From Pseudomonadota bacterium (GTDB taxonomy: Bacteria; Pseudomonadota; Alphaproteobacteria; Kiloniellales; J153): DNA of 38,239 nt. The stretch covers positions 1-38,239 of the forward strand of contig JACZVL010000006.1 of the NCBI GenBank assembly GCA_022572685.1, read 5' to 3'. Shown one piece after another: positions 1,197 through 19,273 of this stretch. Both the position numbers and the translations under genes were made by a program. Under the pieces are notes generated by a model. The model was not told where the DNA came from. It saw only the letters and a program-made list of their open reading frames with translations, and ran no database searches. Positions within the stretch are counted from its first letter, which is position 1. The number at the start of each line of letters is the position of its first letter.

Positions 1197-1310
1197 TGCA
1201 TTGCGGCAAGCGAATGGACATCCGTCCGCGGTTGCCGCCGCGCCCCTTCTCGGGGCGCTTCCTCCCTAAACTCCGGGCCGCGCGGCTTCGCGCGGCCCGA
1301 TCTTTTTTTT
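1197..1310 (+). ncRNA. Possible small RNA ending in an intrinsic terminator
   Basis: Within the 226-bp gap between two minus-strand genes, the plus strand shows a hairpin with a perfect 7-bp stem (GCGCCCC 1240-1246 with GGGGCGC 1252-1258). It is followed by a perfect 10-bp stem (1275-1284 with 1289-1298, loop GCTT) and a run of eight T at 1303-1310. This is the form of a Rho-independent terminator reading on the plus strand, where no protein gene lies upstream. A weak promoter-like pair (TTGCGC at 1167, CATATG at 1190, 17-bp gap) precedes it. Alternatively the hairpin serves as a 3' structure for the minus-strand acetyltransferase mRNA, whose stop codon is at 1315. Confidence 0.25.
1275..1310 (+). 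terminator. Rho-independent terminator
   Basis: Perfect 10-bp GC-rich stem with a 4-nt loop followed by T8 (1303-1310). Orientation is plus strand, although both flanking genes are on the minus strand. On the minus strand the A8 tract precedes the stem and only TTT follows shortly after, so termination there would be weaker. Confidence 0.7.
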
Positions 1311-1314
1311 CGGC

Positions 1315-3503: not shown

Positions 3504-3578
3504 GGGCGCATAGCTCAGCGGGAGAGCGCCTCGTTGACATCGAGGAGGTCCCTGGTTCAATCCCAGGTGTGCCCACCA
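3504..3578 (+). tRNA. tRNA-Val (anticodon GAC)
   Basis: Cloverleaf readable by eye: acceptor GGGCGCA with TGTGCCC (one G-U pair), D arm GCTC...GAGC, anticodon stem CCTCG/CGAGG around loop TTGACAT (anticodon GAC), and T arm CCTGG-TTCAATC-CCAGG. Discriminator A and an encoded CCA end at 3578. The island with the integrase scar begins directly downstream, so this tRNA is the probable attachment site. Confidence 0.95.
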
Positions 3579-5044: not shown

Positions 5045-6889
5045 TTACACTCCGACGCGCTGCTTTCCGCGGCCCTTCGCGTGCTCGGCGGTGCCTTTCA
5101 GCACCGCTTCGCGCTGGCTGACCTGCGGTACGCCAACGTCCCACCAGGCATCGCCCGGCGTCCACTCGTTGGGGTGCACCTTGATGACGATGACGTAGGT
5201 GCGGTCGGCTTGCTTCGCGCGCTCGAAGGCGCGCTCGAACTCGGCGATGCCGTCGACGGTTTCGGCGTTCGCCCCCATGCTCTCGGCATGCTTGGCGAAG
5301 TCGACCTCGACCCGGTTCCGAATGCGGCAATGCTCGAAAAGATTGTTGAAGGACGCGCCTCCCTTGAACCTCTGCAGCCGATCGATAACCGCGAAGCCGC
5401 CGTTGTCGCAGACCACGACGATCAGTTTGTGGCCGGTCAGGACGGAGCTGTAGATGTCGGAGTTCATCATCAGGTAGGAACCATCGCCGACGAAGACGAT
5501 GACGTCCTTCTCCGGGTTCGCCATTTTTGCGCCCCAACCGCCGGCGATCTCATAACCCATGCAGCTGAAACCGAACTCGCAATCGAAGTTGCCCACCGAC
5601 CTCGCGCGCCAGTTCTTGTTGAGCTCGCCGGGCAGTCCGCCGGCGGCGGTGAGCGCGATGTCGGTCGGGTCGCACATGCGGTTTACGGCGCCGACGACAT
5701 GGGCGTAGGACGGCAGGCTGGCGTTGGTCGGGCCACTGAATTTGTCGACCACCCGGTTCCACTCGGCAGTCTCGCTGGCGGCGCGCCGGGTCCACGCTTC
5801 CGGCCCACGCCAGTCGGTCAGCGCGGCGCCAAGCTCGGTCAGCCCCGCCTGGGCGTCGCCGACGACCGATAGCGCGCGGTGCTTGATGGCATCGAACCGC
5901 GCGGCGTTGAGGGCGATGAGCCGCAGGTTCGGGTTCTGGAACACCGTCCAGGAGCCGGTCGCGAAGTCCTGCAGACGCGTGCCCACGGCCAGCACCACGT
6001 CGGCCTCGGCCGCCAGTGCGTTGGCCGAGGCGCTGCCGATGACGCCGATCGGACCGGCGTTGAGCGGGTGATCCCAGGGCAGCACCGCGCGACCCGCGAT
6101 GGTCTCGACCACGGGGATGTTGTGGCGCTCGGCGAACACCGCGAGCTCGGCCGTCGCCAGCGCGTAGTGCACGCCGCCGCCGGCGATGATCAACGGCTTC
6201 ACCGCGCCTCGCAACAGCGCCGCCGCGGCGATCAGCTCCTCGGTGTCCGGGCGCGGCCGGCGGATGAGATGAACCCTGGGCTCGAAGAAGCTCACCGGAT
6301 AGTCGTAGGCCATGCCCTGCACGTCCTGAGACAGGCCCAAGAAGGCGGGCCCGCAATCGGCCGGATCGAGCATGATCGCGATGGCCTCGGGCAGCGAGGA
6401 GATGATCTGCTCCGGCCAGGTGATCCGGTCCCAGTAGCGGGTCACCGCCTTGAAGGCGTCGTTCACCGTGGTCGTCGGGTTGTCGAAGTGCTCGACCTGC
6501 TGCAGGACCGGGTCGGGCACGCGGTTTGCGAAGGTATCGCCCGACAGCAGCAGGACCGGCAGGCGGTTGGAATGGGCCACGCCCGCCGCGGTCACCATGT
6601 TGGTCGCGCCGGGGCCGATCGAGGAGGTTGCCACCATGATCTGCCGGCGCCGCTTGGCCTTGGCGTAGGCAACGGCGGCCAACGCCATCGACTGCTCGTT
6701 CTGCCCACGCCATGTCGGCAGCACGTCCTTGACGCTCTCCAGCGCTTCGCCCAGACAGGTGACGTTGCCGTGGCCGAAGATGGCGAAGACGCCGCCGAAC
6801 AGAGGCGCCTCGGCACCGTCGATCACCGTCCTCTGGACGGTGAGATACTTCACCAGCGCCTGAGCCATGGTGAGGCGAACAGTCTTCAT
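5045..6889 (-). CDS. iolD: 3D-(3,5/4)-trihydroxycyclohexane-1,2-dione acylhydrolase (decyclizing) IolD
   Basis: A 614-residue thiamine-diphosphate enzyme that hydrolytically opens the cyclitol diketone made by IolE, giving 5-deoxy-D-glucuronate. Features: N-terminal PYR domain with FGHGNVTCLGEAL and the ThDP-activating Glu in WRGQNEQSM; a central domain; and a C-terminal PP domain with the GDGSYLMMNSDIYSS...CDNGGF motif that binds Mg-ThDP. Length fits IolD (about 610-640). Start chosen at ATG 6889, with GGGAGGAG 9 bases before. It follows the aminotransferase gene by 82 bp in the same operon. IolB, IolC, IolJ and IolA, needed to take the product to central metabolism, are not in the window. 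Confidence 0.92.
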   Translation of the reverse strand: MKTVRLTMAQALVKYLTVQRTVIDGAEAPLFGGVFAIFGHGNVTCLGEALESVKDVLPTWRGQNEQSMALAAVAYAKAKRRRQIMVATSSIGPGATNMVTAAGVAHSNRLPVLLLSGDTFANRVPDPVLQQVEHFDNPTTTVNDAFKAVTRYWDRITWPEQIISSLPEAIAIMLDPADCGPAFLGLSQDVQGMAYDYPVSFFEPRVHLIRRPRPDTEELIAAAALLRGAVKPLIIAGGGVHYALATAELAVFAERHNIPVVETIAGRAVLPWDHPLNAGPIGVIGSASANALAAEADVVLAVGTRLQDFATGSWTVFQNPNLRLIALNAARFDAIKHRALSVVGDAQAGLTELGAALTDWRGPEAWTRRAASETAEWNRVVDKFSGPTNASLPSYAHVVGAVNRMCDPTDIALTAAGGLPGELNKNWRARSVGNFDCEFGFSCMGYEIAGGWGAKMANPEKDVIVFVGDGSYLMMNSDIYSSVLTGHKLIVVVCDNGGFAVIDRLQRFKGGASFNNLFEHCRIRNRVEVDFAKHAESMGANAETVDGIAEFERAFERAKQADRTYVIVIKVHPNEWTPGDAWWDVGVPQVSQREAVLKGTAEHAKGRGKQRVGV

Positions 6890-6971
6890 GGCGATCTCCT
6901 CCCGCCAACGCCGTCCGGCCGGATCGCGGCAACGGCGGCCCGAGCACCTCGGATATGCGGTTTTCGCGGAC

Positions 6972-8225
6972 CTAGGCCGCCGTATCTCCGAGATCGAATT
7001 TCTGCGCGTCCACCGGCGCCGCATTCCGGATGTCTACGTCGTCACGCGCCAGGCCGTCCAGGGCAACTCGTGCGGCAGCGACAATATTGTGAATGGTCTC
7101 GTCGATCTGCTGCTGCGCATGTTCCGGATGCATCGGCACCAGGATGGTGCGGTCCAGGATATCCAGGGAGCCGGCGCACATGTCCTTCGAATACTCGCGC
7201 CGGCAGCCGGAGTTTTGCGGCATCTCGTAAGGGTTCAATCCGGGGTGTGCCGCCCCGGCGCACATCAGCACCTGATCCCACTCCGTATAACTGTGGCGGC
7301 CCGTCTTGCCGGCAATGACGCTGGGAAAGACCTCGGCGAAGGTCTGGGCCTGCCCGGCGGACGGCATCGTGTACATCACGTGGGCGGCACAGTCGTGGTC
7401 CGGACTGTTCATGGGGGTCTGCCGCATGCCGAGGTTGGCCAGACGGGAGGTGCCCTCGAGGATCTGTTTCTTCTCGGCCCGCATGGCCGAGATTATGCCC
7501 GGCAGGCGATCGAGCTGTACATTCAGCATCGCGCCCATGATCTCGGAGGCGCGCGCGCCGTTGCCCGCGAACGGCTTCATGGTGTCACTCCGGCCTTGCC
7601 AGTAGAAGTGACACGGATCGATCGCGCACTTGGCCCGCTCCGCGATCCGCGGGTCGTTGGTGACGACGGCGCCACCCTCGCCGGCCGTCATATTCTTGTA
7701 GTAGTTGAAGCTGTAGGCGCCGGCATGACCGATAGAGCCGAGCATTCGCCCTTCATAACCGCCCCCCACGGCCTGGCACGCGTCCTCCAGGACCAACATG
7801 CCGTGCTTTGCGGCGACTTTCATGATCGCGTCCATGTCGCAGGCCGCGCCCCACATATGGACCGGGATGACGGCCCTGGTCCGCGGCCCGGCCGCCGCGT
7901 CGATCGCCGCGGGATCGATCGTGATCGTCTCGTCGATATCGACGATCACCGGAATCGCACCCACCGCGAGGACCGACGTGGCCGTCGCCATGTAGGTGTG
8001 CGCCGGCACCAGAACTTCGTCACCCGGGCCGATGCCCAGTCCGACCAGCGCCGCCGACAGGGCATAGGACCCGCTGGTCGCCAGGCAGGCATGCTTGACA
8101 CCAAGATAGTCGGCATAGCGGCGCTCGAATCGGTCGCATTCGGTGCCGACGCCGTAACGGAACAGCGTGCCCTGGCGGATGACCCTCGCAATGGCGTCGA
8201 TCTCTTCCTGTCCAACGATATACAT
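6972..8225 (-). CDS. DegT/DnrJ/EryC1/StrS family aminotransferase, candidate scyllo-inosamine/scyllo-inosose aminotransferase
   Basis: A 417-residue PLP-dependent sugar/cyclitol aminotransferase. The fold signatures are ACLATSGSYALSAAL (cofactor phosphate loop), VLEDACQAVGG (Asp contacting the pyridine nitrogen) and SFNYYKNMTAGEGG, where Lys177 is the PLP lysine. Length matches the glutamine:scyllo-inosose aminotransferases (StsC/BtrR type). Start ATG 8225 has TTGGAGGAA just upstream. In this operon, between the transporter and iolD, the natural reaction is removal of the amino group from scyllo-inosamine to give scyllo-inosose, the substrate of MocC/IolE. The direction and substrate are inferred from context; such enzymes are not part of the classic mocABCDEFR set. 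Confidence 0.8.
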   Translation of the reverse strand: MYIVGQEEIDAIARVIRQGTLFRYGVGTECDRFERRYADYLGVKHACLATSGSYALSAALVGLGIGPGDEVLVPAHTYMATATSVLAVGAIPVIVDIDETITIDPAAIDAAAGPRTRAVIPVHMWGAACDMDAIMKVAAKHGMLVLEDACQAVGGGYEGRMLGSIGHAGAYSFNYYKNMTAGEGGAVVTNDPRIAERAKCAIDPCHFYWQGRSDTMKPFAGNGARASEIMGAMLNVQLDRLPGIISAMRAEKKQILEGTSRLANLGMRQTPMNSPDHDCAAHVMYTMPSAGQAQTFAEVFPSVIAGKTGRHSYTEWDQVLMCAGAAHPGLNPYEMPQNSGCRREYSKDMCAGSLDILDRTILVPMHPEHAQQQIDETIHNIVAAARVALDGLARDDVDIRNAAPVDAQKFDLGDTAA

Positions 8226-8332
8226 ACGTTCCTCCAAGCAACTTGGCCGTCTGCGTCGATGCTCGCCGGCGTCGTTCAGGATACCGGCATCAGGCAATAG
8301 GAATTGCGGCCTGCCCTGGCCTTGGTTCCGGC

Positions 8333-9133
8333 CTACTTGATATGTTCACCGCCTTGGGCCCCATCCAGCTCCGCGGTAAGCTGCTCCAATTCTCGACCGC
8401 CGGCCATCATCAACATGACCTGCTCGCGAGTGATCTCGGCTTTCTCGAACGTCCCCTCGCTGCGGCCGCGATTGAGTATCGTAAAACGGTCTCCGACGGG
8501 ATAGGCGTGGTGAACGTTGTGGCTGATAAAAATCACCGCGAGACCCCGCGCCTTCGCCTCCATCACATAGCGCAGGACGACAGCCGCCTGATGAACGCCC
8601 AGCGCCGAAGTCGGCTCATCGAGGATCAGCACCTTGGCACCGAAGTATATGGCGCGCGCGATGGCCAGGCATTGGCGTTCACCGCCGGACAGTGTGCCGA
8701 CCGCCTGGCCGGGATCGCGCACGTCAATGCCGATATTCAGCATCTCCCGCTGCGCGATTTTATCGCTGGCCGCTATGTCGAAACGCTGAAACGGCCCCCA
8801 ACCGCGCACCGGTTCGCGGCCCATGAAGAAGTTTCGCGTGATGCTCATCAAGGGGACCGTGGCCAGGTCCTGATACACGGTGGCAATGCCCCGATTCAGA
8901 GCGCTTCTGGGCGACTGGAAGACGACCTCTTCGCCGTCCAGCAGGATTTTCCCGGCGTCGGGCTTGTGCATGCCCGACAGCATCTTGATCAGTGTCGACT
9001 TGCCGGCCCCGTTATCGCCCAGCAGGCACATCACCTCGCCCGCGTAGCAGATCATCGAGATGTCCTTCAGCGCGATGACCGAACCGTAATACTTGGTGAT
9101 CGAACGCACTTCGATGAGAGGCACTGCCGACAT
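8333..9133 (-). CDS. Sugar/cyclitol ABC transporter ATP-binding protein
   Basis: A 266-residue single-domain ABC ATPase of the FrcA type (one nucleotide-binding domain rather than the double RbsA form). Walker A is GDNGAGKST near residues 40-48, the Q-loop is in ATVYQDLA, the signature is [14 protein letters not shown], Walker B is [11 protein letters not shown] and the switch His is in FISHN. Start at ATG 9133, whose A/T/G shares one base with the permease stop (TGATG); a GTG at 9136 is also possible. It powers uptake with the adjacent permease and binding protein. The cargo is inferred to be rhizopine or an inositol-like compound. Confidence 0.88.
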
Positions 9134-10248
9134 CACCGCGCCTCCGTCATTCGTCTACGAATGAAATTGTTGAACAGCACCGCGACCAGCACCATGGTGC
9201 CCACGAAGACCTTGAACCAATCCGTGTTCACGCCGGTGAAGAAGATGCCCATTTGAACCGTACCGAAGATAAGGGCTCCCAGAGCCGCGCCGACCGCCGA
9301 GCCATAGCCGCCGGTCAGCAACGTGCCGCCGACAACCACCGCGATGATCGCCTCGAATTCCTTCAGCAGACCGCGCTGAGTGTCGGCGGAACCGGCATCG
9401 AGAACCTGGATCGCCGCAAACAGCGTGGCCCCGCAGGCCGTGCCAATGAAAAGCAGAATCTTGACGCGCTCGACGGGGACGCCGGCGTTGCGGGCGGCCA
9501 ACACATCGCCCCCGGTGGCGAAGATCCAATTGCCGAACTTGGTTCGCAGCAGCAACCAGGTGGCCAGCGCCGACAGCACGAGCCACCAGATGACGGAGAC
9601 CGGCACGCCGGGAGCCAGTGGCAGACCGTCGGTGCGCGTCCGAATCGCATCGACGCTGGCCAGCCACAGAAACAGCGATTGGAAAACGTCGCCGGCAAAC
9701 AGAGGCGCCAGCCAGTCATCTTCGAAGAGCGGCCTTAGCCCCGAAACCTGCGTGCGCCCGGTCATCAACCGCGTGATGCCCAACGTGAGCCCCCGCAGGA
9801 TGAACAGGGCCGCGAGCGTGACGATGAAGGACGGCAGCTTCGTTCTCACGACGATCAGTCCGTTGATGTATCCAACCACCACGGCCAGTCCGAATGCCAA
9901 TGTGATCGCGGCCCAAAGCGGCCAGCCGAATTGCTGCATCGGGATGGCGATCGCCACGCCGGCAAATCCGATCATGGATCCGACGGACAGATCGAACTCG
10001 CCGGCGATCATGAGCAGGGATACGAACACCGCAAGGATGCCCAGTTGGGCCGACACCTCCAGGAAGATCATAATGCCCTTCATACTGAACATGCCGCTGT
10101 CGCCCGCGACGATGCCGAAAAACAAGAAGATCAGTATCGTGCCGGCGAGGGCGCCGAGTTCTGGCCGACTCAAGATCTTGACCAGCAGCCGGACTTCTCG
10201 GACTCGCTCGTCGGCATCACGGGCGACGGGGAGGTCTCGCTCAGCCAT
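9133..10248 (-). CDS. Sugar/cyclitol ABC transporter permease (RbsC/FrcC type)
   Basis: A 371-residue inner-membrane protein of the branched-chain/ribose permease family. About ten hydrophobic segments are readable, among them [18 protein letters not shown] and [17 protein letters not shown]. The family motif [14 protein letters not shown] stands near residue 115, and [19 protein letters not shown], typical of the RbsC C-half, follows. It overlaps the ATPase start. The start at ATG 10248 has only a weak, distant purine stretch before it. Together with the binding protein at 11326 and the ATPase it forms a complete CUT2-type importer. Confidence 0.87.
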
Positions 10249-10304
10249 TTTTTCTACAACCGTTCCCTATCTGCCTTTTGCAGCGTCCGAAGTCCGCGTC
10301 GAGA

Positions 10305-11204
10305 TCATGTGTGATGGCGATGCGTCAATGGCTCGCCGAACAGATCCGTCCGGACGAACGGCTCCGTGACGGCGGTGTCCGCCAGCGGGGTGTATACCGA
10401 TGGGCGCCGAAACGCGTCGCCCCAATACTTCGTTCGGCGCCAGGTCCGGATCCAGTCCAGATCGAAGCTCGCCATGCACACATCCTCGGTCTCGCCCGCC
10501 ATTGCGACGACGGAGCCGTCGGGATTGCAGGCAAGGGAATGTCCATCGTGCTGCGGCGCCGCATAATTCGTCATCGCCGTCGCCACCATATTCTCGAACG
10601 CGCGGGCGCGGAACTGGTGGATGCGGATTCGATCGTATTCGGTCAGACTGCAGGCGTTGGGCGTCAGGATGAGCTCCGCGCCCTGGATCATCAGCAGACG
10701 CGCGGACTCCGGGAACTCGCGATCGTAGCAGATCATGGCGCCGACCCGCACGGGTCCGACGCGGGTGTCCAGATCGGCGGTGTAAAAGTCGGTCCCGGGG
10801 GTGCAGACGACTTCGGGATTTTCGTAGCAGCAGGTATGGACCTTCCCGTAGGTGAACAGGACCTCGCCGTGCCGGTCGATCAGGGATACCGAATTCCTCG
10901 GCTGCCCGGGCCAGGTCTCGAGGTAGGTTACCGCCAATGCCATATCGAGTTCGCGGGCGAGTTTCCGGTGGTGCCGGATGAAGTCGCTGTCGCCATCGAT
11001 GGACTGGCCCATCCACGAGTCCCGCGCAGACTCGATTGTCGGGTCGTAGCATTGGTAGCCAATGTTCCACATCTCGGGGAACAGCGCGATATCGGCGCCC
11101 TGTTCCGCCGCGCGACGGCAAAACGCCTCCCCTTTCTCGAGATTGGCCACCTGGTCTCCGCCCTGCGCCGCCATCTGCAGCAGCGCAACATTGAGATGTG
11201 TCAT
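10305..11204 (-). CDS. Carbon-nitrogen hydrolase (nitrilase superfamily)
   Basis: A 299-residue amidase-type enzyme with the Glu-Lys-Cys catalytic triad visible: Glu in LFPEMWNIG, Lys in FTYGKVHTCC and Cys in MICYDREFPES. Such enzymes hydrolyse linear amides, N-carbamoyl groups or omega-amides. The start ATG 11204 (MTHLNVALLQ) fits the family beginning and has GAGG 8 bases upstream; an in-frame ATG exists at 11231. It sits between the binding-protein and permease genes, so it is part of the operon. It has no known counterpart in the described moc loci. One attractive possibility is an omega-amidase that removes 2-oxoglutaramate made by a glutamine-dependent aminotransferase; another is deacylation of an N-substituted aminocyclitol. 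Neither can be decided here. Confidence 0.82.
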   Translation of the reverse strand: MTHLNVALLQMAAQGGDQVANLEKGEAFCRRAAEQGADIALFPEMWNIGYQCYDPTIESARDSWMGQSIDGDSDFIRHHRKLARELDMALAVTYLETWPGQPRNSVSLIDRHGEVLFTYGKVHTCCYENPEVVCTPGTDFYTADLDTRVGPVRVGAMICYDREFPESARLLMIQGAELILTPNACSLTEYDRIRIHQFRARAFENMVATAMTNYAAPQHDGHSLACNPDGSVVAMAGETEDVCMASFDLDWIRTWRRTKYWGDAFRRPSVYTPLADTAVTEPFVRTDLFGEPLTHRHHT

Positions 11205-11325
11205 CCGAGCCTCGCGAAATTTCTCCGGCATGCCGGTCGTGGGCTTGCGTCCCTCGGTATTAGGGGCCGCGCGACGCGCGACCCCTTGATACCACGGTTA
11301 GGCAAACGCCGCCGGTTTTCGACAC

Positions 11326-12282
11326 TTACCGATAGCCTTTTTTCGCCATCTCGATGACCTCGGCGGCGGTGTTCTTCATCACGAACAACGGACCTGTCAT
11401 CACGTTGGTAACCGGGATCATACCGACTTTGTGGTGCAACGCCAAGAACACCACCGGCAGATAACCGGTCAGATACTGCTGGGCATCGATCGCGAACATC
11501 GCCTCGCCTTTGTCGATCGCCTGGAGCAGCGTCGGGGACAGATCGAACGACCCGATCTGGATTTTTTTCCGATTCGGATCGCCGTCAGCGATTCCCTTGA
11601 GTGCTTCCAGCGTTGGGTCGAACGCCTCGGCACAGCACGTGAGCACGGCGTCCACGTTCGGATGTTGTCCAAGGTATGCCTCGACCCCGTTGCGGATCTC
11701 GGTCGGATCGGCGGAGGTCGCGATCACCACTGAATCGCCGCCAAGGCCCTTCTGGAAGCCCTCACACCGCAGGTCGAGCGCGACATTGCCGATCTCCATG
11801 TTGATACAGGCACCGACCGAAAGTCCGGCCGCCTTCATCCGTTGGCCGGCCTCAAGTCCGGATTGGTACTCGTTGATGCCCATATGGAAAACCGCACCGA
11901 GTTCCTTGCTGACCTCCTCGCCGGAGTCCATTGAGATCACGGGGATGTCGGCTGCCACGGCGGCGCGGATCGCATCGCCGAGCGCGTCCGCGTCCGGGAT
12001 CGACACCACCAACCCGTCAGGATCGGTCGCGATCGCCGCTTCGATCAACTGTGCCATCGCGACCACGTCGAACACCTGGGGCGACAGGTACTGTACCTCT
12101 GCGCCCATCAGTTCCGCCGCGTCGTCAACGCCTTTCTTCACGGTCGACCAGAAGGCGCTGGTGGCGCTGGCGTGGGTGACAAATACGATCCGCGCCGGAT
12201 CGTTGTTCTGCGCCTGGGCTTGGACGGCCCAAAAGCCGAGTAAAATCGCTGCGCCGATCAAAGCCTTTTTTAGAGTATGCAT
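11326..12282 (-). CDS. mocB: Periplasmic sugar-binding protein of the ABC importer (MocB-like)
   Basis: A 318-residue type-I periplasmic binding protein (RbsB/MocB class). The signal peptide is clear: positive MHTLKK, hydrophobic ALIGAAILLGFWAV, and cleavage after AQA near residue 24. The mature part begins with RIVFVTHASATSAFWSTVK, typical of the family, and contains the hinge pattern VISMDSGEE. Start ATG 12282 has GGAGGG 7-8 bases before. It is the first gene of the seven-gene minus-strand operon and lies 218 bp from operator copy 1. Assignment as the rhizopine-binding MocB rests on context with MocR, MocA, MocC and MocD/E; an inositol or other cyclitol ligand is the alternative. Confidence 0.75.
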   Translation of the reverse strand: MHTLKKALIGAAILLGFWAVQAQAQNNDPARIVFVTHASATSAFWSTVKKGVDDAAELMGAEVQYLSPQVFDVVAMAQLIEAAIATDPDGLVVSIPDADALGDAIRAAVAADIPVISMDSGEEVSKELGAVFHMGINEYQSGLEAGQRMKAAGLSVGACINMEIGNVALDLRCEGFQKGLGGDSVVIATSADPTEIRNGVEAYLGQHPNVDAVLTCCAEAFDPTLEALKGIADGDPNRKKIQIGSFDLSPTLLQAIDKGEAMFAIDAQQYLTGYLPVVFLALHHKVGMIPVTNVMTGPLFVMKNTAAEVIEMAKKGYR

Positions 12283-12500
12283 CCCTTTACCCTCCATGGT
12301 TTCCTCATGGTTGACGGTTTCCCCTGGTCGGCAACCGCGAAGCTCGTAAGACGATTCGCCTCAACGCACACCGGGCAGCCCAACCGCCGCAATCCGGGTG
12401 ATCTCTCAAGAACCCGCATCGCCGGAACCTGAACATCTGTGCGCCGTGCGCAGCTTCGGACCTTGCCGTTTTGGGGCCCCGGTTCTTAACTATGCCGGTA

Positions 12501-12545
12501 TTGATCCCAACACTAGGGACAATTCGTGACATTCTATAGGGTACA
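12501..12545. promoter_or_regulatory. Predicted MocR operator, copy 1 (transport/degradation operon)
   Basis: Composite 45-bp element: TTGATCCC (12501-12508), GGGACA (12516-12521), 17 bp, GGGTACA (12539-12545). It matches copy 2 at 34 of 45 positions with identical spacing. It lies in the 278-bp gap upstream of the binding-protein gene, just after the mocC stop codon. Two direct GGG(T)ACA boxes plus an opposed half-site is the kind of layout known for MocR/PdxR/GabR-type regulators. Confidence 0.7.
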
Positions 12546-12560
12546 ATTTGAATGCCAGAC

Positions 12561-13475
12561 CTATCGGGAAGCTGTCTGGTCCTGGACCACAAAACCAGCG
12601 GCCCGCGCCATCGCGGCAAGGTTGTCATGACCCATCCTGGCGAAAGTCAGGGGGTGGGCCTTTTCGGGATCCTGCTCCGCCTCGACGACCAGCCAGCCAG
12701 CGAAATCGGCCTCGCACAACGTCGCCAAGATGGCGGGAAAATCGAGGCCGCCATCTCCAGGCACCGTAAAGAGGCCGTCGAGCACCGAATCCATGAAGCT
12801 CATGTCGGTTCGCCGGGCCTGCCGCAATTTCGCTAGCCGTACATCCTTGCAGTGAACGTGAACGATCCGCCGCGCATGCCGGCGGGCCAGGGCCACCGGC
12901 TGACCGCCTGAAAAGGCGCAATGGCCGCTGTCGTAGAGCAACCCGACGGCGGGGCCGGTCACCGACATCAGCCGATCCACTTCGTCATCGGTTTCGACCA
13001 CCGTGCCCATGTGGTGATGGAAAGCCATCCCAACCCCGAATTCGGCCATCCGCTCCGCAAGCGCCGTCAGCTTGCGGCCATAGCCCGGCCAATCACCATC
13101 CATCAGCCGCGGCCGCTGGGAGATGGGCCGCCAGATGGCGTCGTGGCGCCCGCGCGATGTGTCGGCGTAGACGACCAGCTCGGCTCCCAGATCGCGCAGA
13201 AGGCTCAGATGCGGTAACACCGCCTCGAACTCCGCGTCGACGTCACGGTCCAGGATTCGGCCATCCCACCAACCGGAAACCACCGCCAGGCCGTACGGCA
13301 GCAGAGCGGCGCGAAGGGCCGAACTCTCGCGCGGAAACTTGTACCCCAGTTCCGTGCCGAGATAGCCCGACTGCCGGATTTCGGACAGACAGGTCGTCAA
13401 GGGCGTATCGCCGCCGAGCTCCGGCACGTCGTCGTTGGTCCAGCCGATCGGATTGACGCCGATCTTGATGGTCAT
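12561..13475 (-). CDS. mocC: Inosose dehydratase MocC/IolE-like
   Basis: A 304-residue TIM-barrel enzyme of the xylose isomerase-like family. The N-terminus (IGVNPIGWTNDDVPELGG, then LGTELGYKFPR) is the diagnostic start of IolE and the rhizopine protein MocC. It removes water from scyllo-inosose (2-keto-myo-inositol) to give 3D-(3,5/4)-trihydroxycyclohexane-1,2-dione, the IolD substrate. Metal-site candidates are the Glu of GTELGYK, HHHMGT, LLYDSGHC, HVHCKDV and VVEAEQD. Its ATG overlaps the stop of the upstream dehydrogenase by 4 bases (ATGA), so both are translated from one mRNA. Distinguishing MocC from IolE by eye is not possible. Confidence 0.88.
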   Translation of the reverse strand: MTIKIGVNPIGWTNDDVPELGGDTPLTTCLSEIRQSGYLGTELGYKFPRESSALRAALLPYGLAVVSGWWDGRILDRDVDAEFEAVLPHLSLLRDLGAELVVYADTSRGRHDAIWRPISQRPRLMDGDWPGYGRKLTALAERMAEFGVGMAFHHHMGTVVETDDEVDRLMSVTGPAVGLLYDSGHCAFSGGQPVALARRHARRIVHVHCKDVRLAKLRQARRTDMSFMDSVLDGLFTVPGDGGLDFPAILATLCEADFAGWLVVEAEQDPEKAHPLTFARMGHDNLAAMARAAGFVVQDQTASR

Positions 13476-14656
13476 CGGCCCACGGCCTCCCTATCGGTGA
13501 CGGGCGCGGCCGGGCCGGGCGCCTGCTCCGGCGCCGTGATGGTCGTGCCGCCCTCCGCAGAATCGATGATGGCCTCGCAGACCCGGGCGATACGGCATGC
13601 CTGCTCGAGATCCGGATCGACGTTGCGTCCGGCGGCGACGGCCACAATGAACTCACGCAGCTCGATCGTCTTCAGATCGTTGAAGCCCAGGCCATGGGCC
13701 GGCGCCGGGACAAAGGCGCCATAGTCCGGATGCGCGCTGTTGACATGGATCGTTCTGAACCCCGACTCGCCGACCGGATCACTGTCGATGTACAGCTGCA
13801 ATTCATTGAGCCGTTCGCCCGCGAGCGCGAGCGTGCCGTTTTCGCAAACCAACTCGAAAGCGATGTCCATCTTGCGGCCATGCGCGATCCGGCTCACCTC
13901 GATCGTGCCGACGGCACCGGTGCCAAATTGCAGTAAAGCGCCGGCCCAATCCTCGTTCTCAACCTCGCGCCGCGGCTGGACTCCCTCCGCTTCCGGGCGC
14001 GTGCGATGAAAAGTCCCGGTGAGGCCGCTGAGCGAGGATATCGGCCCACATAGATAGCGGGCAATGGCGATGATGTGCCAGCCGAGATCACCCAAGGCGC
14101 CGCAGCGGCCGGCCAGTTTCGCGTCGAGCCGCCAGCTGAAAGGCGCGTCGGCGTCGGCGAGGTAGTCTTCGGCGTGACGGCCGCGAAAGTGAATCGGGCG
14201 GCCCAAGTCACCGCGATCCAGAAGCGTCTTGGCATGCCGTATCATCGGCGCCCGTAGGTAGGTGAAGCCGACCGCAGAGGTAATTTCCGCCGCGGCGGCC
14301 GCGGCGGCGATCCGTGTCGCCTGGTGGCTGGAAAGTCCCACCGGCTTCTCACAGAGAATATGCTTGCCGGCGGTGGCGGCCGCGACCGCGATCTCCATAT
14401 GCATGAAGCTGGGGACGGCGATGATGACCGCGTCCACTGCCTCCAGGGCCTCGCGCCAATCCACCGTCCAGCGCTCGAAGCCGAGGCGCTCGGCCTGGGC
14501 GCGTGCCCGGCGCTCGTCGAGGTCGGCCAGGACCGTCGCCACCGCGCGCAGCGGGCGGGGGCCGAAGACCCGATTGACGGCGTTGATCGCCAGCCCGTGT
14601 GACTGGCCGATAAAACCGGCACCGATCAGGCCGAAACGCAGGCTCTCGTTGGTCAC
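13472..14656 (-). CDS. mocA: Gfo/Idh/MocA family dehydrogenase (MocA-like)
   Basis: A 394-residue NAD-dependent dehydrogenase. Rossmann motif GLIGAGFIGQSHG at the start, CEKPVGLS near residue 106, and AEDYLADADAPFSWRLD followed by GALGDLGWHII in the substrate domain. These C-terminal features match rhizobial MocA and related inositol dehydrogenases that act on rhizopine or inositols. No ATG precedes the Rossmann strand; GTG 14656 is chosen, with GGGAGG about 8 bases upstream. It heads a two-gene operon with mocC, divergent from mocR across operator copy 2. Its C-terminus (APEQAPGPAAPVTDREAVGR) is a short disordered tail. Confidence 0.82.
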   Translation of the reverse strand: MTNESLRFGLIGAGFIGQSHGLAINAVNRVFGPRPLRAVATVLADLDERRARAQAERLGFERWTVDWREALEAVDAVIIAVPSFMHMEIAVAAATAGKHILCEKPVGLSSHQATRIAAAAAAAEITSAVGFTYLRAPMIRHAKTLLDRGDLGRPIHFRGRHAEDYLADADAPFSWRLDAKLAGRCGALGDLGWHIIAIARYLCGPISSLSGLTGTFHRTRPEAEGVQPRREVENEDWAGALLQFGTGAVGTIEVSRIAHGRKMDIAFELVCENGTLALAGERLNELQLYIDSDPVGESGFRTIHVNSAHPDYGAFVPAPAHGLGFNDLKTIELREFIVAVAAGRNVDPDLEQACRIARVCEAIIDSAEGGTTITAPEQAPGPAAPVTDREAVGR

Positions 14657-14709
14657 CTGGAGCGCCTCCCGAGCTTCTCTTGGTCGCCGTCCCTGTGATA
14701 GGATGGCTA

Positions 14710-14754
14710 TTGTCCCCATCGCTAGGGACACTTTCAAACATTCAATTGGGTACA
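14710..14754. promoter_or_regulatory. Predicted MocR operator, copy 2 (mocR/mocA divergent region)
   Basis: Same 45-bp layout as copy 1: TTGTCCCC (14710-14717), GGGACA (14725-14730), 17 bp, GGGTACA (14748-14754). TGTCCC and GGGACA form a perfect 6-bp inverted repeat with 8 bp between. It ends 19 bp before the mocR start codon and 54 bp from the mocA start, which suits autoregulation of mocR with control of mocAC. Confidence 0.75.
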
Positions 14755-14773
14755 CTAATCTGGAAGCAGGTTG

Positions 14774-16234
14774 ATGCGTGCGAGTTATCCCCTGGATTTT
14801 TTGCGGTTGGACGCAGGCGTGCGCGAGCCCCTTCATCGGCAGCTTTGCGACCAATTGCGGGAGCTGATCCTCGAAGGAACACTGCCCGGCGGCGCCGGCC
14901 TGCCGTCGATTCGGGCCCTCGCCCACACACTGGGGATCGGGCGGAACACCGTGATTTCGGCCTATGACCAGTTGGTTGCGGAAGGATATCTGGAAAGCCG
15001 TCAGGGGTCCGGCACCCGCGTCGTCAAGCTTTGCGAACACCTGTTGCGGGTCATGGGACCGGGGCAACAGCAGAGCCCGCGGCCCACGCCCGCCCTGTCA
15101 TCGCGTGGCGTGATGATGACCGAGCAGCCGCGCGTGCGATCGTTTCCCGGCAAGCCCGCCTTCCATCCGGGGACCCCGGAGTTGGCCAGTTTTCCATTCA
15201 AGGTCTGGAGCCGCTTGCTGGCGCAAAAAGCACGCTTCGGCGGCGAGGATTTGTTCGGTTACCACTATCTCACCGGGCTGCCGGATCTGCGGCGGTCCAT
15301 CGCCTCCTATATCGTGGGATCGCGACGGGTACGCTGTACCGCCGATCAAATCGTCATAACCACGGGGGCCCAGGCGGCGCTCGACCTGCTGGCGCGCCTG
15401 CTGCTGGACGAAGGGGATGGCGTCTGGATGGAGGAGCCCGGCTATCTGGGGGCGCAAAGCGCGTTCCTCGGCGCCGGGGCGCGGCTGATTCCGCTTTCGG
15501 TCGATCGTGACGGGTGGCGCATCACCGCCGATGTGTCGCCGAAGCCGCGCCTGATATATCTCACCCCGTCCTGCCAGCAACCGTTGGGAATAACGATGCC
15601 CCTGGAGCAGCGTCTGATGGTTCTGGAAGTGGCGCGCAGGGAGGGAATCTGGATCATCGAAGACGATTTCGACGGGGAGTACCCGTTTCGCGGACAGCCG
15701 GTACCGGCGATTCAAGGCTTGTCCGAGAACGCGCCGGTGATTTACGTCGGAACTTTCGCAAAGACCCTTTTCCCGTCGATGCGGCTTGGCTTTATCGTGC
15801 TGCCGGTGAACCTTGCGGAGCGCGCAAAGCTGGCCATCAACGTCACCGGCCAATTCCCTCCGCTCATCCTTCAGGCGGCGCTCGCCGACTTCATGGCGCA
15901 AGGCCATTTCTTTTTACACCTCAACAGAATGCGCCGACTCTATGGCCATAGACGGCGACTCTTTCTGAAGCTTTGCGAAGACTATCTGGGCGAGTGGCTG
16001 GAGCCCTTGGACGGACGCACCGGAATCCAGATCACGGCTTTTTTGAAAACGCCGGCCGACGACCGGGCGATCGCCGAACAAGCCGTGCGCAGGGGCGTGA
16101 ATCTCGTGCCGCTGTCACAGTATTACCGGACCTCGCCGCCACGGCCGGGATTCGTCATGGGATACGCGGCGTCGTCCGATTCCACCACGGAGGAATCGTT
16201 CAAGACCCTGCGGGAAGTCTTTCTTCAGTTCTAG
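14774..16234 (+). CDS. mocR: MocR-type transcriptional regulator (GntR winged helix fused to aminotransferase domain)
   Basis: A 486-residue two-domain regulator. Residues about 15-84 form a GntR-type winged helix-turn-helix (HRQLCDQLRELILEG, LPSIRALAHTLGIGRNTV, YLESRQGSG). A linker follows, then a class-I aminotransferase fold from about residue 120 with ITTGAQAALDLLARLLL, PSCQQPLG and GTFAKTLFPSMRLG, in which Lys330 is the PLP lysine. Such proteins sense an amino compound or its PLP adduct; MocR of the rhizopine locus gave the family its name. ATG 14774 is preferred over an adjacent TTG. It is the only plus-strand gene of the island and faces mocE, ending 7 bp before the mocE stop. Confidence 0.88.
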   Translation: MRASYPLDFLRLDAGVREPLHRQLCDQLRELILEGTLPGGAGLPSIRALAHTLGIGRNTVISAYDQLVAEGYLESRQGSGTRVVKLCEHLLRVMGPGQQQSPRPTPALSSRGVMMTEQPRVRSFPGKPAFHPGTPELASFPFKVWSRLLAQKARFGGEDLFGYHYLTGLPDLRRSIASYIVGSRRVRCTADQIVITTGAQAALDLLARLLLDEGDGVWMEEPGYLGAQSAFLGAGARLIPLSVDRDGWRITADVSPKPRLIYLTPSCQQPLGITMPLEQRLMVLEVARREGIWIIEDDFDGEYPFRGQPVPAIQGLSENAPVIYVGTFAKTLFPSMRLGFIVLPVNLAERAKLAINVTGQFPPLILQAALADFMAQGHFFLHLNRMRRLYGHRRRLFLKLCEDYLGEWLEPLDGRTGIQITAFLKTPADDRAIAEQAVRRGVNLVPLSQYYRTSPPRPGFVMGYAASSDSTTEESFKTLREVFLQF

Positions 16235-16257
16235 AGCGGATTCACGCAGTCGATTCG
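16232..16257 (+). repeat. 26-nt dispersed repeat, copy 1
   Basis: Shares 23 of 26 bases with 26521-26546 (TAGAGCrGATTCACGC, then rGTyGATTCG). In this copy the repeat supplies the mocR stop codon (TAG) and, on the other strand, the last four residues and the TGA of mocE. Confidence 0.6.
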
Positions 16258-16616
16258 GCGAAGGTTCCGTCCGGCAGCTCGATCAACACCATCCCGTCCT
16301 CGATCTTTACGGCGTAGGTCTTCAGGTCGACGCAGGCCGGCGCGCTTTTCGCCTTGCCGGTCGGAATGTGAAACCGGCCCTGATGCATCGGGCATTCGAT
16401 GATGTCGTCGATCACCAGCCCCATGGACAGATCGGCGGCCTCGTGCGTGCAGACACCGGCGGTCGCATAAAAACCCGAGGCCGTGTTGTAGATGGCGTAT
16501 TTTTCGCCGCGGCATTCAAATCCCAAGACGTCTTTTTCGTCGATCTCGTCGGTGCGGCAAACTTCGATCCAGGTTCCGCTCAAGTTCTTCTCCCGAATTA
16601 TTCCACTCTTCGGCAT
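16242..16616 (-). CDS. mocE: Rieske [2Fe-2S] ferredoxin (MocE-like)
   Basis: A 124-residue single Rieske domain. The cluster ligands are Cys56-x-His58 (VCTHEA) and Cys75-x2-His78 (ECPMHQGRFHI). It carries electrons to the partner oxygenase MocD. Start ATG 16616 lies 5 bp after the mocD stop, so translation is coupled. The pairing of a soluble Rieske ferredoxin with a desaturase-type membrane oxygenase is what is known for rhizopine MocD/MocE, which turn 3-O-methyl-scyllo-inosamine into scyllo-inosamine. The third component, a ferredoxin reductase (MocF), is not in the window. The stop codon lies inside a dispersed repeat, so the last residues (ESTA) may be acquired. Confidence 0.82.
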   Translation of the reverse strand: MPKSGIIREKNLSGTWIEVCRTDEIDEKDVLGFECRGEKYAIYNTASGFYATAGVCTHEAADLSMGLVIDDIIECPMHQGRFHIPTGKAKSAPACVDLKTYAVKIEDGMVLIELPDGTFAESTA

Positions 16617-16621
16617 CGCGG

Positions 16622-17680
16622 CTACACCGCGGCCGTTTCCGGCAGCGCCCGCCTTATGTAATGGTCGGGATCCGTTCTCGCCTGCCGAATCAATACCGGA
16701 ATCAGTTCGCGGTAGACCGCCCACAGACCGTCGTAGGCCGGTGGTGTCCGATCCCCGATCTCTTCATGAAGCTTCGGCAGCGCATGGAACGGCACCATCG
16801 GGAAGACGTGGTGTTCGACGTGATAGTTCATGTTCAGGTAGAGAAAGCGGAACACCGGGTTGATGGTGACCGTCCGGGAGTTGAGGCGATGGTCGGCCAC
16901 GTTCTCGGCCAGTCCCGCATGCTGCGTCATGGCGAGCAGGTGATGCAGCCAGCCGCCATAAAAGCGCGGCGTGGCGACAAACATCATCGGCAAAAAGCTT
17001 TCGATCGCCAGCGACCAGACCCCGACGCCAGCGATGATCGCGACATAGACCCGGCTCGACCAGATCATCTTGGCCCGCTCGCCCTCCGGTACGAAATCGC
17101 GCACGTCGCCGTCGAGCACGCCGAAGGCATGACGAACGATCCGCGCGAGTTCGGACGGCCCGCCGCGCAGGTACAGGAAATCGGCGATGATGCCGGGCAG
17201 ATTCGCCGGTCGCTGTATGTCGATCTCGGAATCCCGGCCGACCATGAGAGTGTAGGTGTGATGGCGCGCATGGCTCCAGCGCCATAGATAGCCCTCGCGC
17301 AGGGTCATGAACGAACAGAGATGATAGAAGAGCTCGTTGACCCAGCGGGTTCGAAACGGCGTGCCATGCCCGCATTCGTGCCAACGCGCGTCGCTCGACG
17401 AATAGATCGTGCCGTAGACGAAGAAGGCGGGAACCGCCCACCAGCTGTTCCAGGACAAGGCGGCGATCAGGCCGCTCGCGCCGAGAAGCAGCAGCCAGGG
17501 AGCGAAATTCCACCAGGCCTCCCGATCACCGCGCCGCGTCAGTTTCTTGAGGGTCGCGCGCGGGATTTCGGGCGACCACCAGCGTTCCTCGACGCGGCGC
17601 TCGATGCGTTCGCCGTCGAGCGCGACGGCATCGGCCACGCCGCCGGACAGGCTGTAGTCTCGACGTTCAAACGAAGGCAT
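16622..17680 (-). CDS. mocD: Membrane di-iron oxygenase/fatty acid desaturase family protein (MocD-like)
   Basis: A 352-residue integral membrane protein with the three histidine boxes of the desaturase/hydroxylase family: HECGH (101-105), HARHH (137-141) and HVEHH (287-291), plus DHR near 263-265. Hydrophobic stretches lie at about 58-78, 80-96, 210-236 and a shorter one near 243-251. In the moc setting it would hydroxylate the O-methyl group of rhizopine so that it is lost as formaldehyde. ATG 17680 has no clear ribosome site, but a 36-codon open frame with a GGGAGG site overlaps its start by 14 bases and could deliver ribosomes. It begins the mocDE operon behind operator copy 3. A lipid desaturase role is the alternative, made unlikely by the neighbours. 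Confidence 0.8.
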   Translation of the reverse strand: MPSFERRDYSLSGGVADAVALDGERIERRVEERWWSPEIPRATLKKLTRRGDREAWWNFAPWLLLLGASGLIAALSWNSWWAVPAFFVYGTIYSSSDARWHECGHGTPFRTRWVNELFYHLCSFMTLREGYLWRWSHARHHTYTLMVGRDSEIDIQRPANLPGIIADFLYLRGGPSELARIVRHAFGVLDGDVRDFVPEGERAKMIWSSRVYVAIIAGVGVWSLAIESFLPMMFVATPRFYGGWLHHLLAMTQHAGLAENVADHRLNSRTVTINPVFRFLYLNMNYHVEHHVFPMVPFHALPKLHEEIGDRTPPAYDGLWAVYRELIPVLIRQARTDPDHYIRRALPETAAV

Positions 17681-17777
17681 GTGCCGGTCTCGCCGGACGT
17701 CCGACGGACGCCGCCAACGCGAAAGTCCGTTCGATGGAACCGGCGCCGCTCGGACCAGCGTCTTTCGGCCTGTCCAT
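17667..17777 (-). CDS. Possible 36-residue leader peptide of mocD
   Basis: ATG 17777 to TGA 17667 on the minus strand, with GGGAGG 11 bases upstream of the ATG. It overlaps the mocD start by 14 bases in another frame. Residues are ordinary (MDRPKDAG to HAFV) and no family is recognised. Its value would be translational coupling. Real translation is unproven. Confidence 0.25.
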   Translation of the reverse strand: MDRPKDAGPSGAGSIERTFALAASVGRPARPAHAFV

Positions 17778-17836
17778 CTTTTCACCCGCCTCCCGAGCCA
17801 GGGATTCGATCGAGCCCCGGCAGCTATAAACCAATA

Positions 17837-17881
17837 CTGACCCCGTCAAAAGGTACATTCGGCAGGTTATCCATGGGTGCA
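17837..17881. promoter_or_regulatory. Predicted MocR operator, copy 3 (mocDE operon)
   Basis: CTGACCCC (17837-17844), GGTACA (17852-17857), 17 bp, GGGTGCA (17875-17881). Weaker sequence match than the other two copies but exactly the same spacing of all three boxes. Lies 157 bp upstream of the mocD start. Confidence 0.6.
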
Positions 17882-17972: not shown

Positions 17973-19100
17973 TCAGACCTCGGCGATACCCACCCAGCGG
18001 CCGTCCCTGGCCGAGCCCACGACCGCGTCGACCACGCGCTGCACCTCCCACGCCTCCCGGAAGTCGGGCCAGGGCGCGCCGCCGTCCGCCAGCCCCACGA
18101 TCAGGTCGCGCACCTCGATCGTCTTGGTGTCGTTGAAGCCGAGTTGGTGTCCGGGTGCCGGGCAGAAGTCGGCGTAAGGCGGATGGTCCGGCCCGGCGAC
18201 GATGGTCTTGTAGCCCTCGCGGCCGCTCGGCTGGCCGAGGGTGTAGAGCTTAAGCTCGTTCATCCGCTCCTGGGTGAAGGCGAGCGAGCCCTTGGTCCCG
18301 GTGATCTCGTAGTCCAGCTGCGACTTGCGGCCGGTCGCCACCCAGCTCGCCTCGATGCTGCCGCTCGCGCCGCCCGCGAATCGGACCAGACACCGCGCCT
18401 GGTCGCTCACCTCCACGGCCCGCGTCTCGGCGGCGCCGGGGCCGACCGGGCGCTCCTTTACGATGGTCTCGAGGTGGCCACAGACGGCGGCGATGTCACC
18501 GACCAGGAAGCGCGCCAGGGAGATGATGTGGCTGCCGAGGTCGGTCACCACACCGGCGCCCCCGGAGGGTTCCAGCCGCCAGGTGTACGGCGCCGCCGGG
18601 TCGGCCATGTAGTCCTCGGCGTGGATGCCGCGGAAGCCGATGACCTCGCCGATCTCGCCGCTCGAGACGATCTCCCGCGCCAGGCCGGTAATCGGGTTCT
18701 TCAGGTAGTTGAACCCGACCATGGTCTTGATACCCGCGGCCTCCGCGCCGTCCACGAGGATCTTGGCGGCGGCGGCGTCCGGGGCCAGCGGCTTCTCGCA
18801 GTAGACCGGTTTGCCGGCGGCGATAGCCGCCAGCGCGATGGGCTTGTGCAGGACGTTCGGCGCGGCGATGTCGACCAGGTCGACCTTCGGGTCGGCGACC
18901 AGCACCCGCCAGTCTCCGGTCGAGCGGGCGAAGCCCAACCCTTCGGCGCCGCGCCGCGCCACCTCGTCGTCGACGTCGGCCAGCAGCTCCAGCATTGGCT
19001 GGGCCGGGAGGTCGAAGATGCTCGAAGCGGCGCGGAAGGCCAGCGCGTGACACCGGCCCATGAAGCCGCTGCCGATCAGGCCGATGCCGAGCCGTTGCAC
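17973..19100 (-). CDS. Gfo/Idh/MocA family dehydrogenase (inositol dehydrogenase-like)
   Basis: A 375-residue oxidoreductase with Rossmann motif GLIGSGFMGRCHALAF, CEKPLAPD near residue 100, AEDYMADPAAPYTWRLE and TDLGSHIISLARF. It is clearly close to the mocA product (same AEDYxAD-AP-WRL and GxxGSHII motifs), so the two probably act on similar cyclitols. GTG 19100 (VQRLGIGLIG) is preferred, with GGGAGAG about 10 bases upstream; an earlier ATG at 19163 would add 21 residues without family match. The gene follows the SDR by 173 bp and precedes operator copy 3. Confidence 0.83.
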   Translation of the reverse strand: MQRLGIGLIGSGFMGRCHALAFRAASSIFDLPAQPMLELLADVDDEVARRGAEGLGFARSTGDWRVLVADPKVDLVDIAAPNVLHKPIALAAIAAGKPVYCEKPLAPDAAAAKILVDGAEAAGIKTMVGFNYLKNPITGLAREIVSSGEIGEVIGFRGIHAEDYMADPAAPYTWRLEPSGGAGVVTDLGSHIISLARFLVGDIAAVCGHLETIVKERPVGPGAAETRAVEVSDQARCLVRFAGGASGSIEASWVATGRKSQLDYEITGTKGSLAFTQERMNELKLYTLGQPSGREGYKTIVAGPDHPPYADFCPAPGHQLGFNDTKTIEVRDLIVGLADGGAPWPDFREAWEVQRVVDAVVGSARDGRWVGIAEV

Positions 19101-19273
19101 TGGTTCGCTCTCCCGATAGGCAGGGTCAAATCGACGCCCTGAACGCGGCGCAATCCGAACCATCGTCCGTCATGGGCTGGATAAGCTCGGCCGAAAACGA
19201 TGGCGCTTGCGGCAAATCCGTTTTATCCGCCGAAACCGCAGCGAATCGATAGGCGGGTCCAGGTGTCAACTTG

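Follow-up and report, generated by a model that had tools for sequence, protein, structure and literature searches.

Three copies of a 45-bp element in contig JACZVL010000006.1 of a Pseudomonadota bacterium (assembly GCA_022572685.1; Kiloniellales, J153), all 38,239 nucleotides of which are called the window here, are predicted to be operators of MocR, the regulator encoded beside the middle copy. The best explanation of the observations as a whole, in which we place considerable confidence, is that the neighbouring rhizopine-type MocR would act on all three sites, each serving one catabolic unit on the minus strand; binding, inducer and activation are predicted from sequence. The operator set and its regulon are very probably genuine and functional. 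Rhizopine is a sugar-amine of plant symbiosis; MocR, which gave its subfamily its name, serves as the sensor in engineered rhizopine signalling from plants to bacteria. The published MocR operator consists of two loosely conserved boxes only; the present comparison sharpens it to three boxes of fixed spacing and orientation and predicts a third regulated unit, mocC/iolE. The three-part layout is already known, but one core letter is changed in every window copy; with this natural variant, direct tests become possible of what the inverted box and residue 47 of the helix-turn-helix (HTH) do.

Layout of the three sites

All three elements were found where the initial annotation had placed them (Table 1), and each lies upstream of a different transcription unit. 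Copies 1 and 2 agree at 34 of 45 positions, as had been reported, and the weaker copy 3 keeps the spacings with an identity of 23/45 to copy 1 and 24/45 to copy 2. The description of the first part as TTGnCCCC-N8 needed correction, as the gap is 8 after the seven-letter box TTGnCCC and becomes 7 if eight letters are written, and copy 1 does not begin in this way, its actual letters being TTGATCCC. GGGACA and GGGTACA are direct repeats as described, their period being 23-24 bp (~2.3 turns) instead of about two helical turns. Box 1 contains TGTCCC, which is GGGACA in inverted orientation, and the element thus has three boxes. Read from its target gene, copy 2 is TGTACCC - 17 bp - TGTCCC - 8 bp - GGGACA (-> -> <-), and toward its target each site shows the same order of direct box, 17 bp, direct box, 8 bp and inverted box. 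Within the window, copies 1 and 2 are the sole non-coding pair of 45-mers matching at 34 or more of 45 positions; the other three such pairs all lie inside two paralogous Gfo/Idh genes, and three Markov-1 shuffles of the window gave no pair at this level.

With two direct boxes and one inverted box at constant spacing, the sites are of the -> -> <- MocR operator type. This is the commonest MocR operator layout (103 regulogs; Suvorova and Rodionov 2016, PMC5320631), and the likeness extends to box number, orientation, near-constant spacing and the TGG/TGT core; the text of that survey names rhizopine just twice, and no rhizopine regulon was found in the available part of it. The rhizobial moc-box AAAGYGGYTCT, an 11-bp box present twice with a 13-bp spacer in both PmocB and PmocD (Haskett et al. 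2022, PMC10107442), resembles the window sites in that two direct boxes with a 24-bp period lie upstream of mocB and mocD beside a rhizopine MocR gene, and the boxes of copy 2 register with it as follows: AAAGTGTCCC. The core AAAGYGGYTCT itself is absent from the window, where TGT replaces TGG; the published description is without the third, inverted box that the window sites have, and the window has an operator before mocA-iolE. The layout is moc-like and the sequence a variant; by this comparison the window sites belong to a known operator type, differ from it in sequence and have an anatomy fuller than the published rhizobial one.

Searches of the window, the host genome and related loci

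The host genome (3.23 Mb, 81% complete) was scanned by pattern matching only. GGGACA-N17-GGGTACA matched copies 1 and 2 only, and the full pattern with at most 3 mismatches recovered the three copies at 0 mismatches and three matches at 3 mismatches, against 8 matches for the reversed control pattern, indicating no unrelated matches above control level. For the search of the window, a matrix of 54 positions was built from 13 related mocR-upstream sites, the window being excluded. Over 76,372 window positions, this matrix ranked copy 2 first (19.2 bits), copy 1 second (18.1 bits) and copy 3 third (7.8 bits), the fourth-best position scoring 1.5 bits, and the ranking of the three sites was stable under broader and thinned matrices. 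With broader full-length matrices, nothing equal to the score of copy 2 was found on either strand of ~1.09 Mb of other MocR loci. The high-scoring matches in that DNA first looked like false positives, but most are situated 50-100 bp upstream of MocR-type genes and probably represent true operators.

The scan of homologous moc clusters, which had been proposed as a check on the regulon, found the layout kept upstream of mocR and before mocB, mocD and mocC. Thirteen related loci show the spacings of 8 and 17 bp upstream of mocR, among them those of Kaistia, Mesorhizobium, Microvirga, Roseateles sp. XES5 and Sinorhizobium, and the Kaistia region CTGTCCCCATCGCGAGAGCCAGTTT...GGATCCAGTT aligns without gaps with copy 2. 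Operators precede mocB and mocD in the rhizobial loci L119, L120, L121 and L126 and mocC as well in the last three of these, and copy 3 occupies the same place as the rhizobial mocD operator, with the same spacing and strand. Altogether 21 operators align without gaps at spacings of 8 and 17 bp, with the CA of the inverted box kept in 21/21; beyond the inverted box, most show by eye a TA-containing, -10-like stretch starting 7-10 nucleotides further on. Where the catabolic genes form one run, only one strong operator is present; where they are split into units, each unit has its own. The proposal of a MocR regulon is supported by this conservation together with the rhizopine-type regulator, MocR binding being predicted. 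The operator-like sites upstream of mocC (iolE) are on the minus strand at L120:1188, L121:1684 and L126:1661, the first of them 333 bp upstream of the gene.

The regulator and the changed core base

The product of mocR is a member of the MocR/GabR subfamily of GntR regulators, with Pfam domains GntR (PF00392) and Aminotran_1_2 (PF00155) both above their cut-offs. The lysine predicted to bind pyridoxal 5'-phosphate (PLP) is K331 in GTFAKTL and is invariant in 35/35 aligned proteins. It scores 700 bits against the rhizopine MocR profile NF052281 (cut-off 650) and falls, with support 99/100, in a clade of rhizopine-type proteins and close relatives that includes rhizobial MocRs, so by curated cut-off and clade it is a rhizopine-type MocR. 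Its branch is long, and its identity to any relative is at most 53%. Its relatives at 46-53% identity are encoded in other Alphaproteobacteria and on plasmids, with one in a record labelled Roseateles; in the host's order no orthologue of comparable strength was found, the best 44% matches scoring under the rhizopine-type relatives. A phmmer search links the protein to GabR and PDB 7pq9, and GabR of Bacillus subtilis and 7pq9 have, by sequence, the same domain architecture. Their ligands and box sequences are other than those of the window MocR. No cryo-EM paper on PdxR came up in a literature search.

The third base of the direct core is G (TGG) in 36/36 boxes of 18 related operators, whereas the six window boxes have T, T, C and T, T, T there (TGT in 5/6, TGC once). 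HTH residue 47, which adjoins the conserved recognition arginine, is Ile in the window MocR and Thr or Ser in 34/34 nearest relatives. When the operators of about forty MocR loci were read with the core columns left unscored, GG was usual and nearly always accompanied by Thr or Ser at residue 47, and TT with Ile47 was seen only in the window. Matched by the PxxR motif, residue 47 corresponds to Glu34 of FadR, next to the base-contacting Arg35 (PMC4494728). One protein and three operators suggest, without proving, a specificity shift, and it is tentatively proposed that a change from TGG to TGT (one TGC), fixed across the three operators with the spacing kept, reflects a one-base change in MocR specificity with Ile47 as its determinant. 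If true, the Ile47/TGT pairing would give a MocR and promoter that work orthogonally to their rhizobial counterparts in rhizopine signalling. Residue 47 is not proven as the sole determinant, since Rhizobium altiplani (L057) has one TGT-type box although its second mocR carries Ser at this position. We infer that the window MocR is an inosamine-responsive activator of slightly shifted DNA specificity.

In the R. altiplani locus, two mocR paralogues are separated by 1.4 kb, and there are four operator-like sites (9875, 11473, 14335 and 15599), one of which has a GGGACA box as in the window. In a sister group of MocRs (L052-L055, L122-L127), direct AGGTCCACTTT-like boxes occur with the same 24-bp period, and several of these genes adjoin acetamidase, aminotransferase or pyridoxamine-oxidase genes.

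Predicted targets and mechanism

Box 1 lies nearest the target catabolic gene in both the window and the rhizobial moc clusters. Under this rule the predicted targets, all on the minus strand, are the mocB transport/transaminase/iolD run for copy 1, mocA-iolE for copy 2 and mocD-mocE for copy 3. Copy 2 does adjoin mocR, as had been pointed out, and is situated between it and the divergent mocA-iolE operon. Since window and rhizobial operators face their targets in the same way, copy 2 most likely serves mocA-iolE, and autoregulation of mocR through it is less likely; the constitutive mocR promoter of Sinorhizobium meliloti (PMC10107442) fits a site aimed at mocA.

For the mechanism, a MocR dimer holding PLP would most likely bind the two direct boxes, at about -60 to -66 and about -37 to -42 from the transcription start; inosamine or rhizopine would react with PLP, upon which MocR would activate a promoter with a poor -35, and without inducer the inverted box (about -22 to -28) may keep MocR in a pose that does not activate. 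In the window, the predicted starts are near 12479, 14688 and 17815. Scyllo-inosamine induces PmocB and PmocD of S. meliloti 58-fold and 93-fold, and PmocB loses its activity, rather than being derepressed, when its distal part is deleted (PMC10107442). The S. meliloti transcription start 46 bp upstream of mocB (PMC10107442) places the boxes at activator-like positions, calculated for L120, a different strain, as about -63, -40 and -25. If the mocR start of that paper is the annotated ATG (L120:8022), the 27-bp deletion keeps box 3 and the 42-bp deletion removes it; loss of box 3 in the latter matches the reported loss of activity, which favours activation from the two direct boxes. The role suggested for the inverted box follows the behaviour of PdxR, of which the apo form reportedly prefers direct repeats and the PLP-bound form inverted repeats, as reviewed in PMC5320631.

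Several observations weigh against this interpretation. In a shuffled window, a match scoring as high as copy 3 is expected ~0.03 times, whereas in real sequence from other MocR loci the expectation rises to 0.25-1.0 per window, many matches at this level there probably being true operators. The boxes-only search with free spacing does not single out the three sites, because the window boxes deviate from the core of the relatives. The transcription-start geometry is transferred from another strain and species, and the mocC promoter of S. meliloti L5-30 was reported as constitutive (PMC10107442) despite the operator-like site found upstream of mocC in L120. The predicted mocB leader is unusually long, with ~180 nucleotides from predicted start to ATG (window 12298-12480), and an Rfam search of this leader gave no match.

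Alternative explanations

MocR might act on the same sites as a repressor or dual regulator, with box 2 and the inverted box 1 covering the promoter core until an inducer releases it. The model for this is EnuR, which like the window MocR is a MocR-type protein with a PLP domain governing uptake and catabolism of a nitrogenous compound (ectoine), and which is a repressor whose operators overlap -35 and -10 (PMC8739950). In the predicted geometry box 1 likewise falls between -35 and -10, and its strictly kept CA would fit such a role. The EnuR site differs, however, in being an inverted repeat, ATTGT-N6-ACAAT, across the promoter core; the S. meliloti distal-box deletion caused loss of PmocB activity and no derepression, and no good -35 was seen by eye at the operator promoters, and repression is considered unlikely. 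It is more doubtful still that copies 1 and 2 are operators and copy 3 a chance resemblance, with mocDE controlled otherwise. The limited identity of copy 3 to the other two and its fall to ranks 6-9 with box-only matrices speak for chance, but full matrices place it third, and when copies 1 and 2 were added to the matrix it scored 17.2 bits against 6.5 for the next window position; weak alone, copy 3 is carried by its position, spacing and strand upstream of mocD and by the related clusters.

The one-base difference from MocR boxes elsewhere could also mean that the sites belong to a different regulator acting in this cluster by chance. This is very improbable, as the site adjoins mocR in the 13 related loci, most high-scoring background matches also lie just upstream of other MocR-type genes, and the next MocR-like protein of the same genome is just 31% identical and encoded on a different contig. 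Hardly credible is the view that copies 1 and 2 resemble each other as functionless leftovers of a DNA duplication, which the similar Gfo/Idh gene pair of the window might bring to mind. The likeness stops at the site borders, the 48-bp flanks matching at 12-15/48, which is chance level and argues against a duplicated segment, and the matrix of the relatives finds the two copies independently.

Genes of the cluster

Table 1. Predicted operators and genes of the moc cluster (window coordinates)
Feature	Position	Strand	Remarks
Operator copy 1	12501-12545	+	box 1 TTGATCC 12501-12507 (inverted); box 2 GGGACA 12516-12521; box 3 GGGTACA 12539-12545
Operator copy 2	14710-14754	+	box 1 TTGTCCC 14710-14716 (inverted); box 2 GGGACA 14725-14730; box 3 GGGTACA 14748-14754
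Operator copy 3, weaker	17837-17881	+	box 1 CTGACCC 17837-17843 (inverted); box 2 GGTACA 17852-17857; box 3 GGGTGCA 17875-17881
IolD, thiamine pyrophosphate-dependent trihydroxycyclohexanedione hydrolase	5045-7024	-	last gene of mocB run; TIGR04377, 887 bits (cut-off 715)
DegT/StrS-type aminotransferase, candidate inosamine transaminase	6972-8297	-	mocB run; PF01041; substrate inferred from neighbours
ATP-binding cassette (ABC) transporter ATPase	8333-9136	-	mocB run; PF00005; 65% to L118
ABC permease	9133-10248	-	mocB run; PF02653; 62% to permease of Roseateles sp. XES5 cluster L118
Carbon-nitrogen hydrolase	10305-11231	-	mocB run; PF00795
mocB-like ABC substrate-binding protein	11326-12297	-	first gene behind copy 1; best NCBIfam match rhizopine substrate-binding protein NF052284
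mocC/iolE, myo-inosose-2 dehydratase	12561-13475	-	second gene behind copy 2; TIGR04379, 370 bits (cut-off 290); 69% to rhizobial MocC
mocA-like Gfo/Idh/MocA dehydrogenase	13472-14656	-	first gene behind copy 2; only 30% to rhizobial MocA
mocR	14771-16234	+	GntR-type winged HTH and fold-type-I aminotransferase-like domain; NCBIfam NF052281
mocE-like Rieske ferredoxin	16242-16583	-	behind mocD; TIGR02377; 51% to rhizobial MocE
mocD-like fatty-acid-desaturase-type oxygenase	16622-17785	-	behind copy 3; PF00487; 44% to rhizobial MocD over 351 residues

Judged by family content, the cluster is one for uptake and breakdown of an inosamine (rhizopine-type), the substrate being predicted. The rhizobial set is not simply reproduced here, because the MocB-like protein (359 bits against NF052284, cut-off 420) and the MocE-like protein (116 bits against TIGR02377, cut-off 136) are below curated cut-offs and rhizobial MocF has no tblastn match in the window. 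Unlike the rhizobial mocBA unit, the mocB run (5045-12297, minus strand) holds the DegT/StrS-type aminotransferase, IolD and the carbon-nitrogen hydrolase beside the mocB-type transporter, and it looks like a self-contained inosamine pathway.

Two paralogous Gfo/Idh/MocA dehydrogenases (13472-14656 and 17973-19163) flank the mocR-mocD region; both resemble levoglucosan dehydrogenase and both score under its cut-off. An mmgR/suhB small RNA (Rfam RF00519) and a tRNA gene were found at window 1236-1313 and 3504-3575.

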